Shown here piece by piece: positions 42,576 to 58,394 of a DNA stretch of 64,000 bases; position 1 is the first letter of the stretch, and each line of letters opens with the position of its first letter. Below the pieces are notes generated by a model that had not been told where the DNA came from, did not search any database, and saw nothing but the letters and a program-made list of their open reading frames with translations. The stretch lies in contig DASYYH010000016.1 of NCBI GenBank assembly GCA_035934015.1, positions 372,001-436,000 on the forward strand, given 5' to 3'. This DNA comes from Candidatus Acidiferrales bacterium (GTDB lineage Bacteria > Acidobacteriota > Terriglobia > Acidiferrales > UBA7541). A program made the translations under genes and the position numbers.

Positions 42576-42794
42576 TTAAAGGCGGCAATGTCCAAATGGG
42601 GTATGCGCCAACCGCCTTATATGACTCTTCCACGTGCCGATCGCGAAATCGAAATCGTGCTGCCCATCTTGCTCGGTGCTGATGGGCTGTGCGACTGTCG
42701 GCGAGGCGGCTTGTCGAAATGCCTGAAAGGAATGGAAGAGATAGCTAAGCGCGTACAATAGAAAATAAGTCCCGCAACGTCGAAGCGAGTTCAT
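42576..42794 (-). pseudogene. Truncated copy of the secreted GTWK domain gene
   Basis: The 72-codon frame starts ATG at 42794, overlapping the upstream stop (ATGA), and begins with a signal-like segment (CGTYFLLYALSYLFHSFQAF), then DGQHDFDFAIGTWKSHIRRLAH, clearly homologous to the neighbours. After about 10 more residues the homology stops abruptly and a TAA follows, so at least 120 residues of the domain are missing. The stop is one base before the start of the outer-membrane gene. This is most simply a deletion scar; a deliberately short protein is possible but less likely. Confidence 0.7.
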
Positions 42795-43939
42795 CGTTTT
42801 TCTCGTGTGAGCGTTGCGACAAAGTTCGGCTCCCAGGTCTTACCTCCGTCATCCGAAAAAGCCTCCTCGAAATGATATGAGGTCGGGGTGATGTCCGACC
42901 ACACGGTTCGCGCCAAGACCGCTCGGCCATTCACTGTTTCCTGATCGTAAAACTCTCCGCGACCGTCCTTGAACCCGCCGATTGTGGGCACGTTCACTGT
43001 GCCATCGGCGCTGTTGGCTACATTCAGGCTCCACTGATGGGATTGCGGATTATAGAGACGCAGGGAGAGAAATTCGATGTGCCCGGTTGGGCCATCGGCT
43101 TCGACTTCCGCCAGATTCGCGCGGCCGCCCCAGATCTTGTGAACCACGTCCGTGCCGTCGTATTTGATCCAAGTATGAGACCCCATCAAAGGATGCACGA
43201 GATGCTGGATGTGAACCTTCCATGTGCCAAAATCAAAATCGAAATCATGCTGTCCATCCCGCTCCGTACCGGATTCTTGGGCTTTGGCTTGCTGCGTACT
43301 TGAATCCGTTGGAGCCGCTGGCGACACCCATCCCCATGGCTCAGGTTCGCCCATCAGTTTTTCTTGGACGGTAAGGTTCGTTATCCAAGTATTACCTCCG
43401 TCCTCCGAATATGACTGTTCAAAATGATTCGAATTCGTAGTGATGTCTGAGACGCTGATTCGAAGAGGAGTGATTTTGTTATCATAATATGGCTCCTGGT
43501 CGACAAACGCAGCGTCCCCGTTCGTTTTCTTGAACTCGCCGAACATGGGGTTCAAGGTACCGCCAGCGCTGGTGGCCACGTTGAAACTCCATTGATGGGA
43601 TTGGGGACTGTAGAGACGCAGAGACAAAATTTCGAGATGCCCCGCTGGGCCATTGGACTCGATTTCTCCCATATTGGCGCGGCCGCCCCAAATTTTGCGA
43701 ATCACATCCGTACCGTTGTATTCAACCCAAGTATGGGAGTCATGCAGGAGGCGCGACTGATGGGTTTTCCAAGTACCAATACTGAAATCAAAATCGTGCT
43801 GCCCGTCGTGCTCCGCGGTGACTGAGGCTGGCTTTGCCGGCCGAGTCTTCTCGCTTGTCATTCCAATGGTTAATCCCGCGATCATCAACGCCGCAACAGC
43901 CACGCTTCGTCGCATCTTCACATTCTGGACATACTTCAT
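42791..43939 (-). CDS. Secreted protein with two copies of the GTWK domain
   Basis: This 382-residue exported protein has a signal anchor (VAVAALMIAGLTIGMTSE) and two homologous domains. Domain 1 runs from HDGQHDFDFSIGTWKTHQSRLL (about residue 46) and domain 2 from RDGQHDFDFDFGTWKVHIQHLVHPL (about 230). Both contain the WGGRANxxExxxGPxGHxExLSLRLYxPQSHQWSxNVAxS core and end with DDGG.TW or DGGNTW. No family is recognised. The ATG at 43939 overlaps the previous stop (ATGA) and its stop overlaps the next start, so it sits in a tightly coupled operon. The domains look like a duplicated beta-sandwich; ligand unknown. Confidence 0.78.
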   Translation of the reverse strand: MKYVQNVKMRRSVAVAALMIAGLTIGMTSEKTRPAKPASVTAEHDGQHDFDFSIGTWKTHQSRLLHDSHTWVEYNGTDVIRKIWGGRANMGEIESNGPAGHLEILSLRLYSPQSHQWSFNVATSAGGTLNPMFGEFKKTNGDAAFVDQEPYYDNKITPLRISVSDITTNSNHFEQSYSEDGGNTWITNLTVQEKLMGEPEPWGWVSPAAPTDSSTQQAKAQESGTERDGQHDFDFDFGTWKVHIQHLVHPLMGSHTWIKYDGTDVVHKIWGGRANLAEVEADGPTGHIEFLSLRLYNPQSHQWSLNVANSADGTVNVPTIGGFKDGRGEFYDQETVNGRAVLARTVWSDITPTSYHFEEAFSDDGGKTWEPNFVATLTREKR

Positions 43940-45005
43940 TGCTGGACTTTCGTTTGATCCGTAATCCAATTCGTTCCCCATGTCTTCCCGCCATCGTTTG
44001 AAAACGCCTGCTCAAAATGCATGGTCTTCGGCCACCAAATAAATCGAACGTAGACATACTTGCCGTTCACCGTATCCGTCCCATAAAACTCGCCTGTGTC
44101 GCCCTTGAATTCGCCAATCTGTGGAACGAAGATCTTGCCATTGTTACTGTTGGCCCAGTAGAGGCTCCATTGCTGCGTCTGCGGGTTGTAGGTACGCAAC
44201 GTCAAGCCCTCGATGCGTCCCGCCGCACCGCTGGCTTCGAATATCTCCAGTTGGCCGCGCCCACCCCAAATCCTTCGAGTCACGGAATCGGCGTAGAAAT
44301 CAGCCCATTGGTGCGAGCCCGTGAGTGGGTGGTCCAATTCCTTCAGGTGCAACTTCCACGTTCCAAGCTCGAAGTCGAATTGGTGTTCTGGCGCGCTAGC
44401 GTTCAACGGCGGCGCTGCGGAGTCCGCCGCGCCCGCGGAAGTGCGCGTCAACTCTGCGATAAAATTCGGCTGCCACGTCGCACCGCCGTCCCTCGTAGCG
44501 AAATTTCATATCGGTGCGAGTCCTTCTGGATGTCCGACCAGACACCTCGCACAAGAACAGTTCGCCCGCCGTCATCATCCTGCGCAAAGAACTCTCCTCG
44601 ACCATCCTTGAACTCGCCGACCATGGGAGCGTTCAGAATCCCGTCTTTGCTATTGGCATAGCTTTCGCTCCACTGATGTGCCTGAGGGTTATAGAGAAAC
44701 AAGGTAAGGCCTTCCCAGTGTCCCGTAGGGCCGTCCGCCTCGATCTGTTCCAACTCGCCGCGACCATTCCAAATCGGCTCCACTACCACTGTTCCGTTCT
44801 GCTCGATCCAGGTATCGGCGCCGCTCTCCGATCGCACGAGCCGTTTGATGCGCGTCCTCCACGTACCCACATTGAAGTCAAAGTCGTCCTGCCCATCATG
44901 CGCAGGCATGCTGGAGGCTCGTGTCGCGCAGAGAATCAATGACAAAGCAAGCGCGCCGAGGCTAACTACGCGCCAATACCAACCGTATTTGAATTCGACT
45001 TTCAT
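43936..45005 (-). pseudogene. Two-domain GTWK secreted-protein gene, frameshifted
   Basis: The gene begins at ATG 45005 (GAGGACGA upstream) with a signal (VVSLGALALSLILCATRASSM) and domain 1 (HDGQDDFDFNVGTWRTRIKRLVRS). At about 44490-44492 the reading frame breaks: the upstream frame runs HRYEISLR and then ends 14 codons later, whereas the -1 shifted frame continues as DGGATWQPNFIAELTR and into domain 2 (PEHQFDFELGTWKLHLKELDHPLTG) through to the stop at 43936. All other copies read S-D-DGG-x-TW here, so a single G is missing from a GGGG run. Either this is an inactivated gene or a sequence error. The downstream gene overlaps its stop by ATGA. Confidence 0.8.
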
Positions 45006-45092
45006 TCGTCCTCTTTCAAGAGTGTCGTGCAAACGGGCCCGAATGCTCCTGCGCTCTGCCGTCTTCTCTCGGACTTCATTCTCCAAATTCGC

Positions 45093-45153
45093 ATCATCAG
45101 TGATAAAGTGGGTTATGACAATGACCACTTTTGCCAATCTGGTATGACCACTT
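45093..45153. promoter_or_regulatory. Divergent promoter with 10-bp direct repeats, probable MocR operator
   Basis: Two exact copies of ATGACCACTT lie at 45121-45130 and 45144-45153, 23 bp apart start to start (about two helical turns), between the divergent operon and the MocR gene. For the leftward operon a -35-like TTGTCA (45116-45121, minus strand) is 17 bp from GATGAT (45093-45098). The first direct repeat begins at the last base of this -35. Direct repeats are the known binding mode of GabR/PdxR-like MocR regulators. Confidence 0.55.
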
Positions 45154-45163
45154 GCGTTTGTCC

Positions 45164-46669
45164 ATGAAACGACTTCCCGCCAGCTTTCTTCCGCCGATCT
45201 CGCTCGACCGCGGTAAGGAATATCCGATCTACCGCCAGTTGTACGATTGGTTCCAGCGGGCCATAGCCAATGGCCAACTCCGCCCCGGCCAACGCGTACC
45301 ATCCACCCGTGCACTTGCCGCAGAGCTGGGCGTTTCGCGAATTCCTGTTCTGAATGCGTTTGGACAGCTCCATGCGGAAGGCTACCTAGAGACATTCGCC
45401 GGCGCTGGAACTTGCGTTGCCAGTTCGATCCCTCAAGAAACAATTGGGCCGGCTCCGCGCAAGTCAGCGGGAAAGATAAGCCACTCGCCACAGAGAAAAG
45501 GAACGCGCAATATCTCCCAAGCCAACCGAGCAGTGAAATCAACCGCAGACCAGGCATGGTTGAAACTCTCCGGTGCCTTTCGAATGCACTTGCCTGCCCT
45601 CGACCACTTTCCAATGGAAATTTGGTCTCGTCTCGTAGCGCGAAACATTCGAAAAGGGAAAAAGAGTCTTATGGCCTACGGCGATGCGCTGGGCTACGCG
45701 CCGTTCCGCGAAGCTATCGCTGAGTATCTCGGCACAGTTCGCGCTGTGCGCTGCGATCCTTCGCAAGTGATGGTCACAACCGGATCCCAGCAGGGTCTGC
45801 AAATCTCTGCGAGCATCTTGTTGAATCCGGGAGATCCTGTGTGGATGGAAGAACCGGGATATCCAGGTGCTCATCAAGCGTTCGGAACCGTCGGCGCTCG
45901 CTTGATTCCTGTCTCCGTCGATGACGAAGGTCTGATTGTTGAAGAAGCCGTTCGCCGCTGCTCAAGAGCGCGGGCGGTTTACATCACTCCCTCGCATCAG
46001 TACCCGATGGGCATGACCATGAGCGCCGCACGCCGCATGCAGTTGCTCAATTGGGCGTCGCGGGTGGGCGCCTGGATCATTGAAGACGATTATGACAGCG
46101 AATATCGCTTCGGTATCCGCCCAATTGGCTCGCTCCAGGGTCTGGATTCGGATGCGCGAGTCATCTATGTGGGAACTTTCAGCAAAGTTATGTTTCCCGC
46201 ACTACGTTTGGGCTACGTGGTCGTTCCGCCGGATTTGGTGCACGCATTCTCGGTCCTTCGTGAAGCGACGGACATTTTTTCTTCCACTCTTTATCAAGCC
46301 GTGATGACCGATTTCATCAAAGAGAGCCACTTTGCCCGTCACGTTCGCAGGATGCGCAATCTTTACGCGGAGCGATGCAGCATGCTTGGGCAGTCACTCC
46401 GCACACAAATGGGAGCAATGATGGAAGTCATTAGCGCAGACGCGGGAATGCATCTGGTGGGCTTACTTCCTCCTAATTTTCACGACGTGGCGGTTTCGCA
46501 AAGGGCGGCCAAGAGCGGCATCTCCGCGATGCCTCTATCGAATTGCTATCTCAAGCGTCCATCGCCTCCCGGTCTTGTTCTCGGCTACGGCTCGACGCAC
46601 GTCGCGCAGATTCCAGATACAGTTCAAACTCTTTCCAGAATTATTCGTACGTTTGAGGGTGCATCCTGA
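45164..46669 (+). CDS. MocR/PdxR-type transcriptional regulator (GntR HTH fused to aminotransferase)
   Basis: The protein has an N-terminal GntR winged helix-turn-helix (ISLDRGKEYPIYRQLYDWFQ, ...PSTRALAAELGVSRIPVLNAFGQLHAEGYLETFAGAGT) and a C-terminal fold-type I aminotransferase-like domain of about 370 residues, with the PLP-lysine motif YVGTFSKVMFPALRLGYVV and AWIIEDDYDSEYRF (the PLP-pyridine Asp). Start: ATG 45164 (MKRLPASFLPP), 501 residues. MocR proteins typically regulate an adjacent divergent gene in response to an amino compound or PLP; the divergent operon of GTWK-domain genes is the obvious target. Confidence 0.92.
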   Translation: MKRLPASFLPPISLDRGKEYPIYRQLYDWFQRAIANGQLRPGQRVPSTRALAAELGVSRIPVLNAFGQLHAEGYLETFAGAGTCVASSIPQETIGPAPRKSAGKISHSPQRKGTRNISQANRAVKSTADQAWLKLSGAFRMHLPALDHFPMEIWSRLVARNIRKGKKSLMAYGDALGYAPFREAIAEYLGTVRAVRCDPSQVMVTTGSQQGLQISASILLNPGDPVWMEEPGYPGAHQAFGTVGARLIPVSVDDEGLIVEEAVRRCSRARAVYITPSHQYPMGMTMSAARRMQLLNWASRVGAWIIEDDYDSEYRFGIRPIGSLQGLDSDARVIYVGTFSKVMFPALRLGYVVVPPDLVHAFSVLREATDIFSSTLYQAVMTDFIKESHFARHVRRMRNLYAERCSMLGQSLRTQMGAMMEVISADAGMHLVGLLPPNFHDVAVSQRAAKSGISAMPLSNCYLKRPSPPGLVLGYGSTHVAQIPDTVQTLSRIIRTFEGAS

Positions 46670-46741: not shown

Positions 46742-47077
46742 TCAGTTGCGAGTCAGTGCTGCGGCTTCATCCTCGACAATATCCAAGACTGAATCGAGCC
46801 GCACCATTTTAAGGAGTTGAGAGACGCGTTTCGTTGGCGCGAAGAAGGTGCAGTTCCCGCCACACTTCTTCATCTGGCTGTACACGCGAACGAGCGAGCC
46901 GATACCGGAGCTATCCATCTCGGGCACAGAGGCGAGGTTAATAGCCATGCGGCGGACTCCGCCGTCGATCAACTCCTGCACTTGCTGGCGGAACGCTTGC
47001 TCGCTCTCGCCGAGCTTGAGCGCACCGGCGAGATCAACAATGGTAATCGGCCCTGCTTTACGAATCGAGACGGTCAA
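46742..47077 (-). CDS. STAS-domain anti-sigma factor antagonist
   Basis: This protein has a single STAS domain: ITIVDLAGALKLGESEQAFRQQVQELIDGGVRRMAINLASVPEMDSSGIGSLVRVYSQMKKCGG, read across the domain, with the phosphorylatable Ser in MDSSGIG. STAS antagonists bind HPK/serine-kinase anti-sigma factors (SpoIIAA/RsbV type). No anti-sigma kinase is in the window. I use a TTG at 47077 (TVSIRKAGPITIVDL) because GGGGG lies 6 bp upstream; an ATG at 47125 gives a longer leader. It diverges from the GAF-HlyD gene (195 bp apart) and may share a regulatory region with it. Confidence 0.82.
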   Translation of the reverse strand: MTVSIRKAGPITIVDLAGALKLGESEQAFRQQVQELIDGGVRRMAINLASVPEMDSSGIGSLVRVYSQMKKCGGNCTFFAPTKRVSQLLKMVRLDSVLDIVEDEAAALTRN

Positions 47078-47271
47078 GCAGCCCCCACGCGGTAGAAAGG
47101 TACCCGAACTTGTCCTTCCAAGCAAGAGACGGATGGACTGACAGGCTTAATGGCAACTCTCCTTGACTCCCAACATGGCTTTTGCTAGGTTTCTACCGAT
47201 TCTAAGCTCGATTTTCCTCCAATCTGCAATGCTGAGAATAAAGCACGTCCGCATCTCTCCGGGAGAGTGCC

Positions 47272-49731
47272 GTGGAACCTTCTTCCCACTTGCTTGACCT
47301 CGCGACTATTTTCTATGCCTGCCGTGACACAGAAACACTGCTGAAAACCCTTGCGGGGCGTTTAGGGACTTCCCTTGATGCGCGGGCCGTCATAGTGTGG
47401 ATCGCCGCCTGGGACAACGAGGGCGATGATGAATCGGAAACCGAAACAATTTCCGCAAAACTCCAAGCAGCTTGGTTCGCTTCTGGGGAGCGTTTCGAGC
47501 CGGTTGCCAATATGGTTTCGGAAGGCGTACTCGTGCAGGTGCTCGAAAGTGGTGAACCGCTGGAATTCTCTTCGAAATCTGAAGACGAAGACATCTTGGC
47601 GCACTTGGCCGAATCGTCGCGCGAGCGCGTGGAGGCGGAGCTTTACTGTCCATTGCCGGGACCACAGCGTTCAGCCGGAGTCGTCGAGATTCTCAATCCG
47701 CGACGCGGCAGATTCACGCCCGACGAACTGCAGTATGTGCGAGAAGTGAGCCGCCTCGCAGGGCTCGCACTGGAAAATTGCCAGGACCGCGAACGACAAG
47801 TCCATGAGCATCTTACAACGGTCGAGCGTCTGACGGCGTTGTACGACATCAGCCGCATCTTTAATTCCACGCTTGAAATGGAAGAGTTGTTGCCCGTCAT
47901 CACCGAGAAAATTCGTGACCTGTTGAATGCCTCCGCCTGCAACCTCTGGCTCGTAGATGCGGAGACGAACAGTCTTCACGCCATGCAGCAAGCCGGTGAG
48001 GACCCAACTCTGGGCGAAGGAGCACAGTGCGCGATCGGGGAAGGGGTGGTCGGCAAAGCGGCACAATTAGGTCAGCCAGTACTTGTGGAAGCTGCTTCTG
48101 AAGATGAAATGCTGGCAGAGCGGCGCAAGAATGAGACGGAAGACTTCCACTTGGAGTCGGTCATATGCTCGCCACTTCTCAAGGGCGAAGAAGTGATGGG
48201 CGCTATCGAAGTGGTCAACCGCATCGGCGGCGGTGCATTCTCGGAAGAAGATCTCTATTTTCTTTCCAACATTAGTGAGCAGGCTGCGATCGCGATAAGT
48301 AACGCCAAGCTGCTCGACGCTGAGCGTAAAGTGAGCGTTCTCGACGCGCTGCTGGGCATCAGCCGTGAGATTACCTCCACGCTGGATCTCGATCATGTGC
48401 TGCGCACGGTCGTGCAGCAGGCCTCCACGATCATCCCATTTGATCGCGGTGTGATCGGCCTTTTCGATCGCGATCGTTTCCTGCTGGGTGCGGTTTCCGG
48501 GGAAACCGAAGTACCGAAGACACTAGAAATGGACCAATTTAAGGGAGTCTTAGAATGGGCCGCGCGACAGGAAAGCGCTGTTTCCGTCGACCGCGATGAT
48601 GATGGCTGGCGATTGGATCCGCCGGAAGCCAAAGAATCAGTAGCTGCGTTCTTGGAGAATCATGGATATGCGGGTTTTTATGCGCTGCCATTGCGAGACG
48701 ATCAGGGAGCGATTGGAGCAATCGGACTGCTTAGCCAGCAGGCTGATTTTCTCGATGATGACGAACGGGAGACGCTGGCGATTCTCGGCAATCAGACGGC
48801 TGTAGCTATTCGAAACGCCCAGCTCTACCAACAAGTGCCGCTTGCCGGCTTCCTGAAACCATGGGCCGAACGCAAAGAAAAACTCTTTGCCGCGATGCCC
48901 AAAGCTCGCTGGATCGCATGGGCTTGGCGTGGTGCGATTGCTGCTGCGCTGCTTTTCATCATTCCGATGCCCATGCGCATAGGCGCAAATGCAACCGTGG
49001 TGCCGGCGGCCAGGCGCGTCGTCGCTGCCGAAGCTGGCGGGATCGTGGACCGCGTGATGGTCCATGAAGGCAGTAAGGTCAAGGCCGGAGAGTTGCTCGC
49101 GGCGCTCGATTCGAGCGCCGACCAGCTAAAGCTGGTGCAGGCGCAAACCGCACTCGCGAACGCCCAGCGCGCACTGGCGGATGCCGAATTTCGCGGAGAT
49201 CCTTCTGCGGCTGGGCAAGCACACATCGAAGTGCAGCTGCATCAGGCGGAAGTCCAGTTCGAACGCACGCGCGTGAGCGAAGCCATGCTCCTCGCGCCCA
49301 TATCCGGCATAGTGGTCACGCCCAAGGTAGAGCAGAAGGTGGGTGCGATGCTGAAGCCGGGAGATGCTTTCTGCGAACTGGTGGATCCAAGTGAGATGGC
49401 CGTCGAAATGAGCGTTCGCGAAACGGACATGCCGTTGCTGCGTGACGGGATCCCTGTGCAAATCAAGTTGAATGCGCTGCCGCTGGAAACACTTCGCGGT
49501 ACCGTGGATCGTCTCGGTGCCGTAACACGTTCGGAAAATGGTGAGCAATTTTTCGTAGTTCGAGCCGACTTCGCCAATTCTGGGTTGGCCGCGCGCGACG
49601 GCATGGTAGGCAGCGCAAAGATCCTTGCCGCAGGTGGATGGTTTTCCTCTGGATGGTTTCCATTGGGATATGTGATTTTTCGTGCGCCCTTCCGCTGGGC
49701 TTGGGAGTCAGTCTGGTCATGGCTACCGTGA
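47272..49731 (+). CDS. Fusion of three GAF domains with a HlyD-type membrane-fusion protein
   Basis: This 819-residue protein begins at a GTG (GGGAGAG upstream). Residues about 1-175, 190-350 and 360-530 each look like GAF domains (e.g. TEKIRDLLNASACNLWLVD; VICSPLLKGEEVMGAIEVVN; RGVIGLFDRDRFLLGAV). A single transmembrane helix follows (about 553-572, WRGAIAAALLFIIPMPMRIG), then a barrel-sandwich hybrid/HlyD domain (VVAAEAGGIVDRVMVHEGSKVKAGELLAAL) to the end. So cytoplasmic GAF domains are linked to a periplasmic adaptor; ligand binding could gate export. It is 19 bp from the next HlyD gene, in a three-gene operon. Confidence 0.85.
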   Translation: MEPSSHLLDLATIFYACRDTETLLKTLAGRLGTSLDARAVIVWIAAWDNEGDDESETETISAKLQAAWFASGERFEPVANMVSEGVLVQVLESGEPLEFSSKSEDEDILAHLAESSRERVEAELYCPLPGPQRSAGVVEILNPRRGRFTPDELQYVREVSRLAGLALENCQDRERQVHEHLTTVERLTALYDISRIFNSTLEMEELLPVITEKIRDLLNASACNLWLVDAETNSLHAMQQAGEDPTLGEGAQCAIGEGVVGKAAQLGQPVLVEAASEDEMLAERRKNETEDFHLESVICSPLLKGEEVMGAIEVVNRIGGGAFSEEDLYFLSNISEQAAIAISNAKLLDAERKVSVLDALLGISREITSTLDLDHVLRTVVQQASTIIPFDRGVIGLFDRDRFLLGAVSGETEVPKTLEMDQFKGVLEWAARQESAVSVDRDDDGWRLDPPEAKESVAAFLENHGYAGFYALPLRDDQGAIGAIGLLSQQADFLDDDERETLAILGNQTAVAIRNAQLYQQVPLAGFLKPWAERKEKLFAAMPKARWIAWAWRGAIAAALLFIIPMPMRIGANATVVPAARRVVAAEAGGIVDRVMVHEGSKVKAGELLAALDSSADQLKLVQAQTALANAQRALADAEFRGDPSAAGQAHIEVQLHQAEVQFERTRVSEAMLLAPISGIVVTPKVEQKVGAMLKPGDAFCELVDPSEMAVEMSVRETDMPLLRDGIPVQIKLNALPLETLRGTVDRLGAVTRSENGEQFFVVRADFANSGLAARDGMVGSAKILAAGGWFSSGWFPLGYVIFRAPFRWAWESVWSWLP

Positions 49732-50668: not shown

Positions 50669-52813
50669 ATGCGCTTTGGCCCATCGGGACTGCGAGCCTC
50701 GCGAGTGCTGGCCAAAGGGCTGCACCGTCCGAAAGTTCGCTCCGATATCCGCGTAAGCCGACAAAATGTCGCCGGTGAAATCAGTTATGTGATCAAAATC
50801 AGCGAAACGGCAAGCTATAACCGCTACGGCAGCTATGAATTTGAGTTGTTGCAAGCCTTTGATGGCACGCGTACAGCAGCCGAAGCTGCCGAATACATGA
50901 ATGAACGCTACCCTGACACACCTATTGACGAAGCCACGATCTTGGATTTTTTGGAAGGCATCCCGCCCGATATGTGGGAGCGAACCGTCGGCGAGAAGAA
51001 TCTCGCTATCTTGGAGCGCCTTCGCGACGAACGCAAGAGTCGCCTCGATCAGTCCAACCTCCTTTACATAACCTTTAAGGCTTGGGATCCCGACAAGGTT
51101 CTCTCGCGCCTCGACCCGGTTCTCAGCTGGATGTACACGCGGGGTTTCATATACTTCTCGGTGGGATTGTTTTTGCTCATGCTCTGGCTTCTGTCAGGAG
51201 ACTGGAGTCGTATTGCGCATGATACCAAGGAACTCTGGAACTTCTCCGATAAGTCCGCTTATTACCTGTGGGTTTTTTGGTTGCTCATGCTGGTTATCGG
51301 GGGCATTCACGAATTCGGGCATGGGCTCACGTGCAAACATTATGGCGGCGAAGTCCATCAGATGGGATTCATGCTGATTTACCTTACGCCTGCATTTTTC
51401 ACCGACACGACCGACGTATTGATGATGGACCGCGTGGCCCCGCGCCAGTGGACTATCTTCGCGGGAATTTGGGTGGAGTTGTTGCTGTGCAGCATTTCCG
51501 CTGTAATCTGGCACTTCACACTTCCCGGCTCCACGGTCAATGGCCTGGCTTACATGATGATGCTGCTCTGTGGAATTCAGGGCACTCTGTTGAATCTCAA
51601 TCCTCTGATCAAAGCGGACGGCTACTACGCTCTCTGCCAGTACCTGCAAATCGACAATCTGCGCGAGGACTCCTTTGAATTCCTGCAAGCCTGGCTTCTC
51701 CAAAACGCTCTCCGCCGTCAGGTGGAACTCCCGGCCGCAAGCCGGCGGCAAAGAAAAATCTTCCTGACCTACTCTCTCACGGCGCTCGTTTACAGCATCA
51801 CGCTGATTACCGTGGTGCTCTTGTGGTTGAAGAATGTATGCATCAACAAGTTTGGTGCCTGGGGTTACGTCATTTTCGCCGCGGCAATTTATTTCTTTGC
51901 CCATCGGAAAATCCGGAAGCTGGCGACAAAGCTCCCCTCTTGGTGGGTAAAGGCAAAGGAGGGTTATATGGCCTGGAAACTGACGCGAAGGCAAACCGTT
52001 GGTATGGCAGTGGCCGTCGTACTGCTGACCGTGCCACCTATTCCGTCGAGGATTTCCGTGCCCTGTATCCTTGAGCCCAGCGGTCAAGCTGAGGCGCGCG
52101 CCGCAGTCTCAGGCGTTGTCCAGCAAGTGCTCGTGCGGCAAGGAGAACAAGTGCAGCAAGGGCAGGTGCTCGCGGTCTTGGAAAATCCTTTGCTGGCCTC
52201 AGCCGTGGCTGTAGACACGCAACAACTCGCCCTCGAACAGAGCCGGCTCCGCTCGGCAGAAGGGGCCGCCAATGCAGACGCGGCAGCGACGGCCAGTCGC
52301 GAAGTAACTCGGCTTGAAAAATACATGGAGATTGCCCAGCGAGAATACGCACAGCTCCAAGTCCGCGCACCGATCGCCGCGACCGTCACCACGCCCGAGC
52401 TTGCTGAAACGGTAGGAGAATATCTACCCGAAGGGGAGACTTTCTGTCATCTTTCTTCTCGCACGGAAATGCGTGTGCGCATCCTGGTGCACGATTGGGC
52501 GGCTGACGATGTGCGGCCCGGCGCGCGTTTGTTGCTGAAGGTCTCTTCTTACCCATTGAGAACTTATTCTGGCCGGGTGGATCGAATCATGCCGGCCATG
52601 GCTTCCGACCGCCCCGTCGGAGATCCTACAGCGCTCACCCGCTATGGTCAGGAGCTGGCCAACTATATGGCCGTGATCGCTGATTTACCGAATCCGGATG
52701 GCTCGCTCCGCGAAGGAATGACCGGAACAGTTAAAATCTACAGCCCTGCGCGCTCGATTGTCTGGCAGGTGGGCCGTGGCACATGGCGGTGGCTTAGGTC
52801 CCAGTTTTGGTGA
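50669..52813 (+). CDS. PqqD-like / M50 zinc metalloprotease / HlyD fusion (putative peptide export and processing protein)
   Basis: This 714-residue polytopic protein starts with a PqqD-like domain (about residues 35-100, YEFELLQAFDGTRTAAEAAEYMNERYP). A transmembrane bundle follows, with M50 motifs HEFGH at about 214-218 and NPLIKADGYY at about 311-320 (the third zinc ligand Asp), the arrangement of site-2-protease-like 'peptide zinc metalloproteases'. After more helices a HlyD adaptor domain is fused at about 470-690 (SGVVQQVLVRQGEQVQQGQVLAVLENP). M50-HlyD proteins occur next to peptide or bacteriocin biosynthesis genes such as B. subtilis yydH. The gene starts 6 bp after the adaptor lipoprotein and converges on the 44-residue peptide gene. 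Confidence 0.86.
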   Translation: MRFGPSGLRASRVLAKGLHRPKVRSDIRVSRQNVAGEISYVIKISETASYNRYGSYEFELLQAFDGTRTAAEAAEYMNERYPDTPIDEATILDFLEGIPPDMWERTVGEKNLAILERLRDERKSRLDQSNLLYITFKAWDPDKVLSRLDPVLSWMYTRGFIYFSVGLFLLMLWLLSGDWSRIAHDTKELWNFSDKSAYYLWVFWLLMLVIGGIHEFGHGLTCKHYGGEVHQMGFMLIYLTPAFFTDTTDVLMMDRVAPRQWTIFAGIWVELLLCSISAVIWHFTLPGSTVNGLAYMMMLLCGIQGTLLNLNPLIKADGYYALCQYLQIDNLREDSFEFLQAWLLQNALRRQVELPAASRRQRKIFLTYSLTALVYSITLITVVLLWLKNVCINKFGAWGYVIFAAAIYFFAHRKIRKLATKLPSWWVKAKEGYMAWKLTRRQTVGMAVAVVLLTVPPIPSRISVPCILEPSGQAEARAAVSGVVQQVLVRQGEQVQQGQVLAVLENPLLASAVAVDTQQLALEQSRLRSAEGAANADAAATASREVTRLEKYMEIAQREYAQLQVRAPIAATVTTPELAETVGEYLPEGETFCHLSSRTEMRVRILVHDWAADDVRPGARLLLKVSSYPLRTYSGRVDRIMPAMASDRPVGDPTALTRYGQELANYMAVIADLPNPDGSLREGMTGTVKIYSPARSIVWQVGRGTWRWLRSQFW

Positions 52814-52998: not shown

Positions 52999-53133
52999 TT
53001 AGAAGGTGCTGGGACCCCGTCGCAACGTGTTCATCTGCTTGAGCGTCTTGAACGATTTCAGAGACTTGAGTGGCTTGAGCGTCTTCACTTTTCCCAGAGC
53101 CTTACCCTTGTTCGCCGTCTTCTTGGTAGCCAT
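52999..53133 (-). CDS. 44-residue lysine-rich triplet-repeat peptide, candidate exported peptide or precursor
   Basis: The product begins MATKKTANKGKALGKV and contains consecutive triplets TLK, PLK, SLK, SFK, TLK, with less perfect QMN and TLR, then ends GPSTF. It has 11 Lys and 2 Arg and no Asp or Glu. The start ATG is preceded by GGGGAGGAAGTTAACA, a very strong ribosome binding site. At DNA level the region has a 9-bp period (CTTGAGCGT-like units). No cleavage signal or known RiPP leader is recognised. It converges on the PqqD-M50-HlyD operon and is next to a sigma-54 activator gene. Alternative: a small basic nucleoid or regulatory protein. No homology is assigned. Confidence 0.7.
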   Translation of the reverse strand: MATKKTANKGKALGKVKTLKPLKSLKSFKTLKQMNTLRRGPSTF

Positions 53134-53188
53134 TGTTAACTTCCTCCCCTTCAGATTTGCGCCCCCGTGGGCGGACACTACGAAAATA

Positions 53189-53204
53189 TGCAATCCGATG
53201 CCCA
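53189..53204 (-). promoter_or_regulatory. Sigma-54-type (-24/-12) promoter for the 44-residue peptide gene
   Basis: On the minus strand the sequence TGGGCATCGGATTGCA has GG and GC separated by exactly 10 bp, with a perfect TTGCA at -12; the -24 region is TGGGCA where consensus is TGGCAC. It lies 56 bp upstream of the peptide ATG at 53133, a distance compatible with sigma-54 promoters. The neighbouring gene encodes a sigma-54 activator. Confidence 0.55.
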
Positions 53205-53241
53205 AAAAAACGAACCGCCTCCCATCGTGAGTTCCCGCAGA

Positions 53242-53353: not shown

Positions 53354-54742
53354 TCACAAATTGAACTTGCGACGCAGGTAATTCATTCGATTTCGATCCA
53401 CGCCCAGAAGTTTGGCGGCAGCGGCCATGTCCCGAGATGCCTGACGCACCGCTGTTTCCACCAGCTCTCGCTCATACGCCTGTAACTCCTTATCTAGCTC
53501 GATTCCGGAAGCCGGGAAGTGCGTTCGTCCTCGCCCGTTTACTGCAAGCGCGGCGCTAACCTCGCCGGGGAGGTCTCCTAATCCGATGGTCTCGGTTTCG
53601 CACATGAGCACAACGCGCTGGATGACATTTTCGAGCTCTCGCACGTTGCCAGGCCAGGGGTATTTCTTAAGTGCAGCCAGGGCCTCTTCGGAGACCCGCT
53701 TGGGGGAAAACTGGTTCGCTGCGCAGTAGACCTGCACAAAATAATCAGCAAGCAGGGAAATGTCTTCAACGCGCTCGCGTAGGGGAGGCAGGAATATAGG
53801 TACGACGTGGATGCGGTAATAAAGGTCCTGGCGAAATCGCTCCTGATGCACCATCTCTTCCAAGTTCTCATTGGTAGCGGTGATCAGCCGGAAATCGACC
53901 TTGATGGGCTTCTTTCCGCCAAGCCGCAACACTGCATGGTCCTCAAGTACGCGCAGCAGCTTGGTTTGCAGCGATGGAGAGAGAGTGGCAATTTCGTCGA
54001 GAAAAAGGGAACCCTTGTCAGCCATCTCAATACGGCCTTCTTTTGTGGCCACGGCTCCAGTGAACGCCCCCCTCTCATAGCCGAACAGCTCAGCCTCCAT
54101 CAGCGTTTCTGGCAGCGCCGCGCAGTTTACGGAAATAAACGACCGTGAACGGCGTGGACTATTTTCATGGATCGATCGCGCAGCGAGTTCTTTGCCGGTC
54201 CCACTTTCGCCGCGAATAATCACTGTCGAAGAGGATCGGGCCACGCGGCGAATCGTCTCGAAGACGTGCCGCATGGCATCGGTGGTGCCGAGCAGGTCCC
54301 CCAAACCGTGCTTTCTGCGAATTTCGTCCCGCAGGATGCGGTTCTCTCGTTGGATGCGGAGTTTTTCGATTCCCCGCGCTACTAGGACACGAAGCACGTC
54401 CGTGTCCAGCGGTTTGAGAAAATAGTCATAAGCCCCGGCGTCGATCACCTTCAGTGCCGTGGATTTCTTTTCTTCCGAACTTAGAACGATGACTAACGTA
54501 TCGACCTCGCTGCCATCGAGGCGCGACAGTAGCTCCAGGCACTCACTCGAGCTGCCTGAGGGAATCGGCAGTCCCAAAAGGAGAACATCCAATTCGGCCT
54601 CCTGGAGCAACCGATATGCGTCTTTGTAGTTTTCCCCGTCGTAGATGTCGAAATCGCCGCTTAGTGAAGCGTGGATACGCGAACGCAGGCCGTCATCATC
54701 ATCGACGACCGCAATGCGTGGCCTCGTTCCCTTAGAGCTCAT
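53354..54742 (-). CDS. Sigma-54-dependent response regulator (NtrC family) with a degenerate receiver domain
   Basis: The 462-residue product has a receiver domain, an AAA+ domain with Walker A GESGTGKE, the GAFTGA loop (ERGAFTGAVATKEG) that contacts sigma-54, and a C-terminal HTH of the Fis type (AAAAKLLGVDRNRMNYLRRKF). The receiver keeps the acidic pocket (VVDDDDGLR, Asp14-Asp17), the Ser (VLSS) and Lys (FLKPLD) positions, but the expected phospho-acceptor Asp at about residue 57 reads Gly in DVLLLGLPIPS. It resembles the PEP-CTERM-type PrsR family by its DAGAYDYFLKPLDTDVL segment. The likely target is the peptide promoter at 53189-53204. No histidine kinase is nearby. Confidence 0.9.
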   Translation of the reverse strand: MSSKGTRPRIAVVDDDDGLRSRIHASLSGDFDIYDGENYKDAYRLLQEAELDVLLLGLPIPSGSSSECLELLSRLDGSEVDTLVIVLSSEEKKSTALKVIDAGAYDYFLKPLDTDVLRVLVARGIEKLRIQRENRILRDEIRRKHGLGDLLGTTDAMRHVFETIRRVARSSSTVIIRGESGTGKELAARSIHENSPRRSRSFISVNCAALPETLMEAELFGYERGAFTGAVATKEGRIEMADKGSLFLDEIATLSPSLQTKLLRVLEDHAVLRLGGKKPIKVDFRLITATNENLEEMVHQERFRQDLYYRIHVVPIFLPPLRERVEDISLLADYFVQVYCAANQFSPKRVSEEALAALKKYPWPGNVRELENVIQRVVLMCETETIGLGDLPGEVSAALAVNGRGRTHFPASGIELDKELQAYERELVETAVRQASRDMAAAAKLLGVDRNRMNYLRRKFNL

Positions 54743-55118
54743 TTTATTCAGGTGTGTCTTGATTACTCTTCGCGGCCTGCAGGGCCCGTATGGTTTCGAG
54801 ATTCTAGAGTGTGACTTCGCCAGTGTCAATGTCGACGGATCCCGAAGTCACGATGCGCAGGGACCGACCTTTTGCTCTGCTGCTGTCGTTGGGACTCCGA
54901 TTGGACTGCTTAGGATAGGCTCGATACGGGCCCGCCGCAGTTCACGGCATTCTATGATTAGTTTCTAGGAATTGAATGGCTCCAATGTGATGCAAGATAC
55001 ATTTTATAGTGACGGGCATCACATTCGAAATCTAAGTGACTTCGTAATATCGCATTGGTTGTCGAGATTCTGGTTAGTCATCGCTTCCCATTAATGCAAT
55101 TAAATTTGGAGGAACCCA
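54743..55118. promoter_or_regulatory. Regulatory gap upstream of the cupredoxin genes
   Basis: This gap of about 380 bp contains no convincing gene. The clearest element is a perfect 10-bp inverted repeat, AATGTGATGC at 54984-54993 and GCATCACATT at 55016-55025, with a 22-bp spacer that includes a TATAGT-like box at 55005-55010. The half-sites TGTGAT/ATCACA resemble CRP/FNR half-sites, but the spacer is too long for the standard palindrome. A second TGGCAC occurs near 55136, without a matching -12 element. Confidence 0.4.
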
Positions 55119-55280
55119 GTGAGTTCCCGAAGATGTGGCACAATAAATTCGCGCTCATTCCTATGTCCTCCAACAACTTTTTTAACTCAGTTCTTGCACA
55201 AGCTCCATTGCATTGATAAACCATGGGTAGCGGTCATGAGCCGGGAAGAAATTCTCGCGACGAGCGTCGAAAATTGCTAA
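55119..55280 (+). CDS. Possible 53-residue small protein or leader peptide
   Basis: A GTG at 55119 is preceded by TTTGGAGGAACCCA, a strong ribosome binding site, and the frame stays open for 53 codons with four Cys (residues 6, 16, 33 and 53), ending in TAA at 55278-55280. The TAA overlaps an ATG at 55280, giving a TAATG junction with one possible start of the cupredoxin gene. No family is recognised. It could be a leader peptide that couples translation, or chance. Low confidence. Confidence 0.3.
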   Translation: MSSRRCGTINSRSFLCPPTTFLTQFLHKLHCIDKPWVAVMSREEILATSVENC

Positions 55281-55294
55281 TGAAAGGAAACAGG

Positions 55295-56080
55295 ATGATT
55301 ATTAGAAGACAGCAGTCAATTCTCGCATTTTGCGGGATTTTAGCAATCATCGTTTTCATGCAAGCTGGGCTTGCAAGTTTAGAAGCCTATGGCGCAACCC
55401 CAAAAGAAACTTCCAATCCCCCGGCTGGTTTGTACCAAGCGGGTTACTCAGTGCAGGCGGTCCAGAACGGGGGAACGATATCCGGCAAGATTCTTTATCA
55501 GGGCAAACCAATCAGGCCAAAGAAGATCGCCGTGACACAGGACAATAGTGTATGCGGAAATGCGAAGGAAATTTATCCGGCCGAAATCGAGGACGGTGGA
55601 GTTGTGGACGCCGTCGTGTGGATAGATGGCATTGATCACGGTAAGGACTTTGCTTATCCGCCGGCCGTGATCGACCAGAAGGGCTGCATGTTCATGCCTC
55701 CCATCCTCATTATGAAACCGGGGGACCTGAAGGTGCAAAACAGCGATTCGGCATCTCACAACGTGCACATCTACGCTGAAAACAACCGCAGTTTCAACCA
55801 GGTAATGCCAGCGGGTTCGCCAGCGCTTGAGATTCCGCTTGGTCGGCCCGACCGCGCCGTCGTGCGTTGCGATGTCCATCCATGGATGAAGGGTTATGTC
55901 ATCGTGGCTGCCAACGCGTATTACGTCCTCAGCGGCAAAGGAGGCGCCTTTACGCTCACCGATGTGCCTCCGGGAACCTACCATCTGAAGGTCTGGCAAG
56001 AAGATCTGGGCACAAAAGATGTTTCAGTAACCGTGCAAAGCGGACAGACGGCAACCGTCAACGTCACGCTTGGTAAGTAA
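55295..56080 (+). CDS. Secreted cupredoxin-like/carboxypeptidase-regulatory-like protein
   Basis: The product starts MIIRRQQSILAFCGILAIIVFM (signal anchor, about 22 residues) and has a type-1-copper-like site: SHNVHIYAEN (His ligands) and VVRCDVHPWMKGYV, where Cys, His and Met sit as C-x2-H-x2-M. A beta-sandwich segment with IPLGRPD and a C-terminal TLTDVPPGTYHLKVWQEDLG (carboxypeptidase-regulatory-like) follows. The start at 55295 has AAAGGA at 6 nt; ATG 55280 is an alternative. It is followed by a CXXCH outer-membrane protein and a second cupredoxin-like gene, so it probably carries electrons or copper in the periplasm. Confidence 0.75.
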   Translation: MIIRRQQSILAFCGILAIIVFMQAGLASLEAYGATPKETSNPPAGLYQAGYSVQAVQNGGTISGKILYQGKPIRPKKIAVTQDNSVCGNAKEIYPAEIEDGGVVDAVVWIDGIDHGKDFAYPPAVIDQKGCMFMPPILIMKPGDLKVQNSDSASHNVHIYAENNRSFNQVMPAGSPALEIPLGRPDRAVVRCDVHPWMKGYVIVAANAYYVLSGKGGAFTLTDVPPGTYHLKVWQEDLGTKDVSVTVQSGQTATVNVTLGK

Positions 56081-56131
56081 TATCGGAACAGCGGATAGTT
56101 TCTTTCATTTCAAATCAGCGAGGCTGGCAAT

Positions 56132-57502
56132 ATGAAACCTCTGGAAAAAAGGAATAGCTCCATTTTCATCCTCGCGATGGCGGGCACGGTGTTGTTGATC
56201 CTGCTCGCCATCACACCCAGAAACGCGAGAGCCGTCCCAAGCTTTGCACGCCAAACCGGTTTGGCGTGCAGTTCGTGCCATACAAATCCCCCTGAACTCA
56301 CTCCTCTGGGCCGGACCTTCAAGCTGAATGGTTATACGATGACGGGCATAAAGGTTATTACGTCGCCGCCAGAAAAAGAAAAGTCCGGTTTGCAGCTCCT
56401 TTCTTATCTCCCTTTGGCGGCTATGTTTGAAGTCTCCAGCACGGGCACAAAAACTGCGCAGCCCGGAACTCAGAACTGGAGTTTTTCAATCCCTCAGGAC
56501 GTTTCTCTGTTTCTCTCTGGGGAGTATGCCAGCCACCTTGGTGGTTTTGTCCAGGCGACATATAACTCACAAAAAGATCATTTCAGCTGGGACAACACGG
56601 ACATTCGCTACGCGCGCAACCGCCTCGTAAAAGGCAAGACGCTCGTATATGGAGTCATGCTCAACAATAATCCGACGGTCGAGGACTTGTGGAACGATAC
56701 GCCCGCTTGGGGTTTCCCATGGATTCAATCTGCATCCGCGCCATCCCCCATCACAGCCGCGGTGGTTGACGGTTCACTCGCTCAGGACGTCGCCGGCCTC
56801 GGGGGCTACGCGATGTGGAATGACCATCTCTACGGCGCGGCCACCATTTATCGTTCGTCCCATCTTGGTCAACCCCTCCCCAACAATGGGGTGGGATTCC
56901 CCTACAACATTCAGGGAGTTGCTCCCTATTGGCGCGCTGCTTGGCAACAGACCATGGGGAATAGCTATCTCGAGTTCGGCACCTATGGAATGCACATGGA
57001 CTCGATTCCGCAAGGTGTAACTGGCCCCGAAAACCACTACACAGATTTTGCCGCGGACGCGCAATTCGAGCGCGTCCTGCCACAATTCGCAAACAATTTG
57101 GTTACGCTGCATGCAACTTATATTCACGAAAAATCTACCTTGAATGCGGATTTCGCGGATGGAAATGCCTCATTGCTTGCCCATGACCTGAACACATTCC
57201 GGGTCAACGGCGTCTACCACTTCGGCTACCGCTATGCGCCGGGGGTCGCTTACTTTGTAACGACAGGCACGAAGGACCCCCTCGAATTTCCGCAAGGGGC
57301 ACTCACAGGAAGCCTAACCGGCAGTCCCAAGACCCAAGGCTTCGTGCTGAATCTCTCGTATTGGCCGGTCCAGAATGTCCAGCTTGGGCTGCAATACACG
57401 GGCTATACGCAATTCAATGGCGCCGGCACAAATTATGACGGCTCAGGGCGAAATGCTAGCGACAACAACTCGCTTTACATGTTGCTACGTATGCTTTTCT
57501 AG
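56132..57502 (+). CDS. c-type-haem outer-membrane beta-barrel protein
   Basis: This 456-residue protein has a signal anchor (ILAMAGTVLLILLAITPRNARA) and then FARQTGLACSSCHTNPPELTPLGRTFKLNGY, one CXXCH haem-binding motif close to the N-terminus. The remaining 370 residues are beta-rich with aromatic and Thr/Asn content and end in NSLYMLLRMLF, with a terminal Phe as expected for a barrel. It lies between two cupredoxin-like genes on the same strand (51 bp and 109 bp gaps), so an electron-transfer or metal-handling outer-membrane unit is inferred. The haem motif plus barrel is seen in porin-cytochrome-like proteins; no multihaem partner is nearby. Confidence 0.72.
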   Translation: MKPLEKRNSSIFILAMAGTVLLILLAITPRNARAVPSFARQTGLACSSCHTNPPELTPLGRTFKLNGYTMTGIKVITSPPEKEKSGLQLLSYLPLAAMFEVSSTGTKTAQPGTQNWSFSIPQDVSLFLSGEYASHLGGFVQATYNSQKDHFSWDNTDIRYARNRLVKGKTLVYGVMLNNNPTVEDLWNDTPAWGFPWIQSASAPSPITAAVVDGSLAQDVAGLGGYAMWNDHLYGAATIYRSSHLGQPLPNNGVGFPYNIQGVAPYWRAAWQQTMGNSYLEFGTYGMHMDSIPQGVTGPENHYTDFAADAQFERVLPQFANNLVTLHATYIHEKSTLNADFADGNASLLAHDLNTFRVNGVYHFGYRYAPGVAYFVTTGTKDPLEFPQGALTGSLTGSPKTQGFVLNLSYWPVQNVQLGLQYTGYTQFNGAGTNYDGSGRNASDNNSLYMLLRMLF

Positions 57503-57611
57503 CGACAAAGGGTTCAAATTCGCCTGCGGCTTGTTTGCCAAGAAGACCCAATCACCGCGGGACACTTAGAAAGTGTGCCCGCCAGGAAATGTAGAAAGGC
57601 AGGTTGACATC

Positions 57612-58394
57612 GTGACTCAAGACACAACAAACCAGCGGCTGGATTCGCGATTTCGCATGCTCTCCATCATCGTTGCAGTAACGATACTCCTGATCGCCAT
57701 GAACACCTTCGCACACTCGCCGAGGGGAAAAGCGGCCCAATCCAGCACTCAGGAAACGGGAAGCATCTCTGGAAAAATCCTGTTCCAGGGAGAGCGGCCA
57801 AAGCTCGAAATCATCAAGATGTCAAATGACCCCATTTGCGAATCCGAGCAGAAAGGGCAGGTCTACGCACAGGATGGCGAAGTGAACGAAAACGGAACTT
57901 TGCCCAATGCATTCGTTTACATCAAGGATGGTTTCGGCACGCGCAAGTTTACTCCGCCCGTCAATTCCGTAGATCTTACGCAGAGCGGTTGCATGTATCA
58001 ACCGCACGTTGTCGGCATTATGGCGGGACAGCCGCTTCAGGTGCTCACACTCGACCCCACGACGCATAATATTCACGTGACGGCGAAAACCAACCGCTCG
58101 TGGAATGTTTCCCAGCAGCCGGGCTCTCCCTCCGTGATTCGTCGGTTTACTGACCCAGAAGTCATGATCCCTGTGCACTGCAACGTCCATCCATGGATGA
58201 AAGCGTATATCGGTGTAATGGAAAACCCGTTTTTTGAGGTTACAGGCAAAGACGGCACTTTCGACCTGAAAAATATACCGCCGGGTGAATATACACTGGC
58301 GGTATGGACTGCGACCTTCGGAACACAGGAAAAGCGGGTGGTCGTCCGTGCTGCGCTGACTTCTACAGCCGACTTCACTTTTGGACAGCAATGA
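57612..58394 (+). CDS. Secreted cupredoxin-like/carboxypeptidase-regulatory-like protein
   Basis: This 260-residue exported protein starts at GTG 57612 (TQDTTNQRLDSRFRMLS), with AGG upstream and an N-terminal signal (MLSIIVAVTILLIAMNTF). It is paralogous to the protein at 55295: TTHNIHVTAKTNRSWN (His ligands) and VMIPVHCNVHPWMKAYIGV (Cys-x2-His-x2-Met), plus DLKNIPPGEYTLAVWTATFGTQ near the end. Its Cu-site spacing is conserved with the other copy. Two paralogues around a haem barrel protein suggest a small operon with duplicated electron carriers. Confidence 0.72.
   Translation: MTQDTTNQRLDSRFRMLSIIVAVTILLIAMNTFAHSPRGKAAQSSTQETGSISGKILFQGERPKLEIIKMSNDPICESEQKGQVYAQDGEVNENGTLPNAFVYIKDGFGTRKFTPPVNSVDLTQSGCMYQPHVVGIMAGQPLQVLTLDPTTHNIHVTAKTNRSWNVSQQPGSPSVIRRFTDPEVMIPVHCNVHPWMKAYIGVMENPFFEVTGKDGTFDLKNIPPGEYTLAVWTATFGTQEKRVVVRAALTSTADFTFGQQ

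Follow-up and report, generated by a model that had tools for sequence, protein, structure and literature searches.

A lysine-rich repeat peptide of Acidobacteriota as a probable substrate of an RRE-guided site-2 protease and export cassette

Background

The daptide protease MpaP, an RRE-dependent intramembrane M50 peptidase, cleaves the leader from small peptides encoded alongside it (PMC10036551). EpeP, the M50 protease of epipeptide systems, is thought to carry out both the cleavage and the export of a small peptide (PMC10885120). In TMcin systems, the site-2-clan protease TmcP removes the leader of a secreted peptide (PMC13252029).

The locus studied here lies in a stretch of 64,000 nucleotides (the window) and pairs a gene for a 44-residue peptide with a protein in which, as in daptide MpaP/DapP, an RRE is fused N-terminally to a site-2 protease. 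Unlike MpaP/DapP, this protein also carries a HlyD arm. The peptide is not classed as a daptide because its leader is Lys-rich and lacks the ELExMEAP motif, it has no C-terminal Thr, and daptide decarboxylase, aminotransferase and methyltransferase genes do not recur in the cassette neighbourhoods. Rare relatives (L113, L154 and L160) do carry LExRIAP, which resembles the daptide leader motif ELExMEAP (PMC10036551). Likeness to EpeP/YydH-LiaK is seen in a match of the window M50 protein to NF058609 at 1.1e-11. However, the architecture of the cassette is Gram-negative, with HlyD adaptors, and no radical SAM epimerase gene recurs beside the cassette peptides. An epipeptide identity is likewise rejected, since the locus has no radical SAM gene.

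Other comparisons also yield partial likeness. TMcin precursors are transmembrane, with a disulfide and an ABC exporter, whereas the listed cassette peptides have neither such a hydrophobic segment nor Cys. The C-terminal part of the window fusion folds like MacA and MexA. MacA-type adaptors pair with an encoded ABC or RND pump, but the HlyD arms of the window are fused to protease or GAF domains. The best NCBIfam match of the window regulator is PrsR, the PEP-CTERM-box response regulator (418.7 bits, cut-off 502.6), from which it differs by Gly in place of the phospho-acceptor Asp. Of the usual marks of a RiPP cluster, the locus has a small precursor with conserved leader and variable core beside processing genes, and a PqqD-like winged-helix RRE in the processing protein. 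No modification enzyme recurs in the locus neighbourhoods, and one could be encoded elsewhere in the genome.

A search of the open-licence literature found no description of the cassette, and the searched text of two papers on RREs mentions neither M50 nor HlyD. RRE-guided maturation by site-2 proteases is known. Its combination with the RRE-M50-HlyD and GAF-HlyD fusions, a sigma-54 regulon, private repeats and no modification enzymes is found nowhere in the open-licence literature searched, and the mode of export stands a real chance of being novel.

Results and discussion

Gene arrangement of the cassette

The peptide gene is convergent to the gene for the RRE-M50-HlyD fusion and adjoins the gene for a sigma-54 regulator on the same (-) strand. 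The initial annotation of the peptide missed this adjoining machine and the sigma-54 regulation, which are the context that gives the peptide meaning. The features of the cassette are as follows.

46742..47125, - strand: STAS-like protein, divergent from the GAF-HlyD gene (judged from sequence alone)
47272..49731, + strand: fusion of three GAF domains, a membrane segment and HlyD, 819 aa
49751..50662, + strand: HlyD/RND-type periplasmic adaptor, predicted lipoprotein (lipobox LGGTVGC), start at an internal ATG
50669..52813, + strand: fusion of RRE (PqqD-like, aa ~18-108), site-2 protease (HEFGH 214-218, NPLIKADGY 311-319) and HlyD, 714 aa
52904..52929, no strand: hairpin GGGCTGCTG/CAGCAGCCC between the convergent M50 and peptide genes, read from the sequence and a possible bidirectional terminator
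52999..53133, - strand: peptide ORF, 44-aa cationic precursor-like peptide with type A leader MATKKTANKGKALGKVKTL and tail
53140..53149, - strand: Shine-Dalgarno sequence GGGGAGGAAG, 6 nt from the ATG of the peptide gene
53189..53205, - strand: sigma-54 type -24/-12 promoter TTGGGCATCGGATTGCA, with its -12 GC 57 nt before the peptide ATG, enriched family-wide
53354..54829, - strand: sigma-54 dependent response regulator, PrsR/NtrC-like, with a GAFTGA loop and Gly for the receiver acceptor Asp

Clustering of ORFs from 36 related and 57 more distant loci identifies the M50/GAF-HlyD, HlyD and sigma-54 regulator genes as conserved neighbours, the HlyD lipoprotein being found in 44 of the 57 second-tier loci. 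STAS-like proteins occur in a minority of cassettes and a kinase-like ATPase in 4 loci. Beyond these the neighbourhood clusters contain no conserved enzyme, and in particular no modification enzyme. Near the cassette there is no conserved ABC, MFS or TolC partner, which leaves the export motor unexplained, and no conserved receptor gene. In the 47272-49731 (+) protein, a cytosolic GAF sensor is apparently wired to a periplasmic HlyD export arm, an arrangement conserved across cassettes.

The peptide gene and its repeat

Translation of 52999-53133 (-) yields MATKKTANKGKALGKVKTLKPLKSLKSFKTLKQMNTLRRGPSTF, a peptide of 44 residues of which 13 are K/R and none D/E, just as initially annotated. Where at least five consecutive triplets had been claimed, the run of x-hydrophobic-basic triplets extends to six (KVK TLK PLK SLK SFK TLK). 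None of 200,000 residue shuffles reaches this length. The run is also unique in the window, the next-longest among 749 ORFs of at least 30 aa being 3. A 9-bp period previously noted in the DNA is real (lag-9 identity 0.63 versus 0.35 in codon shuffles) but imperfect. Because synonymous codons vary from unit to unit and Tandem Repeats Finder reports no array above threshold in the gene, the repeat looks like a protein pattern under selection rather than the result of fresh DNA slippage. Searched against Pfam, NCBIfam, PADLOC and the PDB sequences, the peptide falls into no named family, in agreement with the earlier view that none was known.

The Shine-Dalgarno sequence and the sigma-54-type site upstream support the ATG as the start of the peptide. 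An in-frame TTG at 53205, upstream of this ATG, overlaps the promoter. The frame is kept in close relatives. An orthologue from the same genus (G002, MATKKTLSKPKALGKTKTLKPVKTLERRALLRRTV) retains the leader and has a diverged tail with fewer triplets, and MQKKGIALKKGKKLSGAKTLKGVSSLRGVSTLRGINTLRSINTTRATKA is found at the same place in G014. Over the first 25 codons, the window gene and the G002 orthologue show 8 synonymous and 6 nonsynonymous differences. When repeat number is compared among homologues, the count of TLK-like units differs between relatives. By these signs the 44-aa ORF is judged to be a real gene.

Sigma-54 control

The gene is under putative sigma-54 control, having a -24/-12 element in front of it and, next to it, an activator that carries a GAFTGA loop. 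When the stretch 35-110 nt upstream of the ATG is scored, strong sigma-54 matches (score >= 21) are found for 48 of 58 peptide genes versus 3 of 657 controls, the remaining ORFs of these loci (Fisher p = 6e-61). Type A leaders are also found away from the cassette, with ten matches on several contigs of G009 and seven in G077. Most of these unlinked genes are preceded, at a distance of about 50-60 nt, by a sigma-54-like site of their own. This distribution suggests that one machine serves a dispersed substrate regulon.

The receiver of the regulator carries Gly at the phospho-acceptor position (DVLLLGLPIPSG). This residue is G, A or N rather than Asp in 20 of 52 homologues, so that control by phosphorylation is doubtful in this regulator clade.

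Leaders and tails of the peptide family

In the cassettes of relatives, small Lys-rich ORFs, in some cases several paralogous copies, occupy the corresponding intergenic slot in the same orientation. Homologous leader peptides between the M50-HlyD gene and the sigma-54 regulator are present in two families of relatives and in dozens of named Acidobacteriota loci, and about 60 homologues of the peptide gene occupy this slot. A scan of a genome collection returned at least 556 relatives of the M50 protein, from which 80 loci, chosen by protease homology and mostly from metagenome assemblies, were kept. They belong mainly to Acidobacteriota, with a few from Gemmatimonadetes, Planctomycetota, Bdellovibrionota and Aminicenantes. 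The peptides form a large and apparently undescribed family of soil Acidobacteria, many members of which have repeats specific to their species.

Three leader types can be distinguished. Type A (consensus MAKxKxVKKGKKLGxVKPL) is found with close M50 relatives of the window protein. Its members have the Lys-rich leader in common and differ in their tails, some of the window's relatives using the repeats TLQRG, ASLQR and TALQR. Most of the more distant Acidobacteriota loci encode a type B peptide, MxIQKKSLIS...KKA, followed by a tandem repeat private to each lineage. These units include LGK (L077), MHK (L124), GLSGGK (L142), LAKSTN (L134), VAASK (L140), PAVAR (L116), KNQPLL (L146), VVGHSPK (L136), NTRA (L123) and NSPLS (L080). 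Mean identity among type B peptides is 0.59 in the leader versus 0.24 in the tail. Type C leaders are present in three loci (L109, L114 and L122), with repeats that are longer and more acidic.

Tails are significantly repetitive in 39 of the 48 peptides tested, with periods of 3 to 12. Cut at residue 20 and taken alone, the window tail falls short of significance (p = 0.085), since the cut removes some of its repeat and only exact residue matches are scored. The 26 type A tails that lack LQR/LQG units are related sequences and thus not independent tests; in them, hydrophobic residues tend to recur at lags 3 and 6 (z = 5.9 and 9.1, respectively) and are under-represented at lags 1, 2, 4, 7 and 8. 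On these sequences, the hydrophobic period of 3 is taken to be a trait of the subfamily, and Lys at every third residue to be specific to the window lineage. The x-hydrophobic-Lys pattern originally emphasized thus holds across the subfamily in its hydrophobic spacing but not in its strict Lys spacing, and the conserved part of the peptide is instead KKGKKLGxxKPL. In sister systems the repeat unit is mostly 4 to 12 residues long. In some type A peptides, 4-8 residues follow the motif, for example TVFLNR or IQWSPK. Basic residues mostly make up 15-25% of type A and type B tails, with few acidic residues. The type B tails of L078 and L080 depart from this composition, and type C tails, as in L114 and L122, range from neutral to slightly acidic.

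No recognisable peptide was seen in the Planctomycetota and Bdellovibrionota branches, which are the deepest. Weak single P0001 matches in other genomes (E 0.07-0.8) are read as chance frames. The exception is G025, in which the weak match has a real type A peptide close by. Collagen-like, pentapeptide-repeat and other weak matches of the repeat tails are far below cut-offs and are dismissed as low-complexity resemblance. In the pentapeptide-repeat case, only LQR-type relatives match (20-22 bits against 260), and the window peptide does not.

A few peptides are unusual. The tails of several unlinked type A peptides (L213, L219 and L224, near 3000, 3000 and 1900, respectively, together with L209 and L222) resemble pieces of T6SS Hcp, as if the leader had been grafted onto Hcp fragments. 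For L213 the likeness is to Pfam T6SS_HCP (E 0.06), and the remaining likenesses were noted by eye; ETLSLNFTKIEFKYKPQD is an example. Downstream of the M50 gene in L160 (Aminicenantes), there are four identical tandem copies of MAKKSTKKVVKLNVERLEKRIAPTRAAIAMG, whose LEKRIAP motif recalls the daptide leader ELExMEAP. L145 carries two tandem type A-like peptides at 18.3-18.7 kb (-), about 7 kb from the M50 gene and outside the usual slot.

The RRE-M50-HlyD fusion

The protease domain has the signature of an M50 site-2 protease, with HExxH and a distal NPxxxxDG motif that fall on helices in the structural model. Among 49 M50 sequences, H214, E215, H218, N311, P312, D317 and G318 are invariant, and HExxH and the distal N-P-L-x-K-x-D-G-Y are nearly or fully so, x positions aside. 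Among specific NCBIfam models, those of the daptide and epipeptide metalloproteases come closest, both matched below cut-off (NF041824 at 185 bits against a cut-off of 300). The best specific match of the window protein is daptide_HExxH, at 1.8e-54.

An AlphaFold2 model of the full fusion (pLDDT 82) contains an N-terminal beta3-alpha3 domain. A Foldseek search with the full model gave only HlyD-type adaptors among the matches listed, and the domain was therefore modelled alone (pLDDT 88.8). The structures that resemble it most are leader-binding RREs: FusB1 (6jx3, Z 9.7), TbiB1 (5v1v, Z 9.3) and TigE (Z 9.0). These are followed by PqqD (Z 7.9) and then by ThcOx, TruD and related heterocyclases, MccB and PbtF. 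In the same range (Z 5.7-7.4) there are also a few winged-helix domains of methyltransferases and carbamoyltransferases. The top PDB matches of the N-terminal profile are PqqD. Pfam PqqD matches 31 of 45 M50-HlyD N-termini (best 3.6e-6), the window's own match being weak (0.21). The N-terminal domain is thus predicted to fold like a RiPP recognition element. The C-terminal part of the fusion matches MacA, MexA and AcrA.

Co-divergence and distribution

Co-occurrence was assessed in 201 relatives that had not been selected by protease, which makes this the sole co-occurrence test free of that bias. An M50-HlyD match is present in 15 of 17 genomes with a type A leader and in 13 of 13 with a type B leader, versus 60 of 201 overall. 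The two genomes that break the type A pattern, G021 and G109, have incomplete assemblies, and their matches are weak. In G102 the two leader types occur together, as do the two types of protease. In the M50 tree, type B forms one 100/100 clade and types A and C each lie within one clade, an arrangement of labels as tidy as which none was obtained in 200 shuffles. Leader type follows the protease tree, which is to say that the two have co-diverged.

At E <= 1e-60, the M50-HlyD protease is found in 47 of 297 sampled genomes of the phylum, and carriers include cultured Granulicella and Edaphobacter strains. What had been an orphan 44-mer becomes a member of a system whose protease is present in about one in six sampled genomes of the phylum.

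Proposed mechanism

The peptide is probably a ribosomal precursor that a dedicated machine recognises, cleaves and exports, in the manner of MpaP or EpeP, and we hold this reading with some confidence. Transcription of the peptide gene would start at the sigma-54 promoter, recognised by its motif and by its family-wide enrichment, and would probably be driven by the activator, whose link to the promoter is suggested by adjacency. The PqqD/RRE domain of the fusion may then bind the Lys-rich leader of the KKGKKLGxxKPL type, as the RRE fold and the co-divergence of leader and protease imply. At the membrane, the M50 domain, with its complete active site, would cut the leader from the tail. Finally, the architecture of the cassette suggests that the fused HlyD arm, the lipoprotein HlyD and GAF-HlyD form a periplasmic conduit through which the cationic tail leaves the cell.

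Given the lack of a conserved modification enzyme, the cell probably releases a cationic peptide with little or no modification, which would act extracellularly. A first guess is that the tail is antagonistic to the membranes of competitors, with signalling and matrix binding as rivals. The tail sequence changes rapidly, in many lineages through the expansion of a private repeat, whereas the leader, the promoter and the machine are retained. Several findings speak against a dedicated machine. Type A ends of 4-8 residues would give a very short product if the whole motif were removed, and some type A genes are far from any cassette. The match of the M50 protein to NF041824 is below cut-off, the lack of a conserved pump partner leaves the motor unexplained, most loci come from metagenome assemblies, and the deepest branches yielded no recognisable peptide.

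A more specific version, offered tentatively and somewhat more apt to fail than to hold, is a hitherto undescribed class of peptide secretion in bacteria: an RRE-guided site-2 protease with a HlyD arm fused to it would recognise short unmodified peptides, cut them and translocate them with neither an ABC nor an RND pump. It would do so for a genome-wide sigma-54 regulon of leader-tagged peptides, the cargo of which is a private repeat in many lineages. The system as seen pairs RRE-guided proteolysis with a fused export arm and no modification enzyme. Through this pairing, the cassette makes testable the role suggested for EpeP, that site-2 proteases themselves export peptides. The lineage-private repeat tails amount to a natural library of short cationic sequences on one leader, and could serve as peptide export tags.

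Alternative explanations

That the ORF is a chance, untranslated low-complexity frame might be suggested by its shortness and biased composition. It is contradicted by the conserved frame with its balance of synonymous and nonsynonymous differences, by the Shine-Dalgarno sequence and by the homologues filling the same slot, and with synteny, promoter and co-divergence all opposed it is rejected as next to impossible. The Lys/Ala/Gly-rich composition and the lack of acidic residues would also suit an intracellular nucleic-acid-binding protein, similar to a histone tail and unconnected with the export genes. Such a protein should not be linked to, and co-diverge with, an RRE-protease-exporter, nor have dedicated sigma-54 promoters and acidic type C members in the same slot. 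Synteny, promoter and co-divergence again lead to rejection, and we regard this function as very improbable.

The remaining alternatives concern what the tail does. Short peptides released by the machine, either repeat units or ends of 4-8 residues, might act as pheromone-like signals that carry information about kin; the response would be sensed by the regulator together with the GAF and STAS proteins. The processing logic would be the same as that of the dedicated machine. Very short tails after the conserved motif, the many dispersed copies each with a sigma-54 promoter and the fusion of sensory GAF domains to the exporter all agree with signalling, and tandem repeats could yield many copies of one short signal. 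However, a receptor gene is not conserved in the neighbourhood, the repeats share no uniform processing site (NSPLS has no K/R) and multi-repeat tails are large and strongly cationic, so signalling is thought unlikely. Alternatively, the tails could be polycations that bind anionic surface material such as exopolysaccharide, LPS or extracellular DNA, with selection acting on composition and not on sequence. The fully different sequences of type A and B tails, which mostly keep their basic fraction with few acidic residues, fit this idea, as does the resemblance of the regulator to PrsR, a PEP-CTERM/exopolysaccharide regulator. The neutral or slightly acidic type C tails, the off-composition tails of L078 and L080 and the shortest type A tails, which are too small, do not, and we would give polycation binding a low probability.

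Other genes of the window

Two further arrangements lie outside the cassette. At 42791-45614 (-), consecutive ORFs consist of one repeated domain (HDFDFxxGTWKxHxxRLxHPLxGSHTW...), an apparent tandem expansion. At 55223-58394 (+), a protein with a CxxCH motif, possibly of the outer membrane (56132-57502), lies between two paralogues that look secreted and have a CDVHPWM/CNVHPWM motif.
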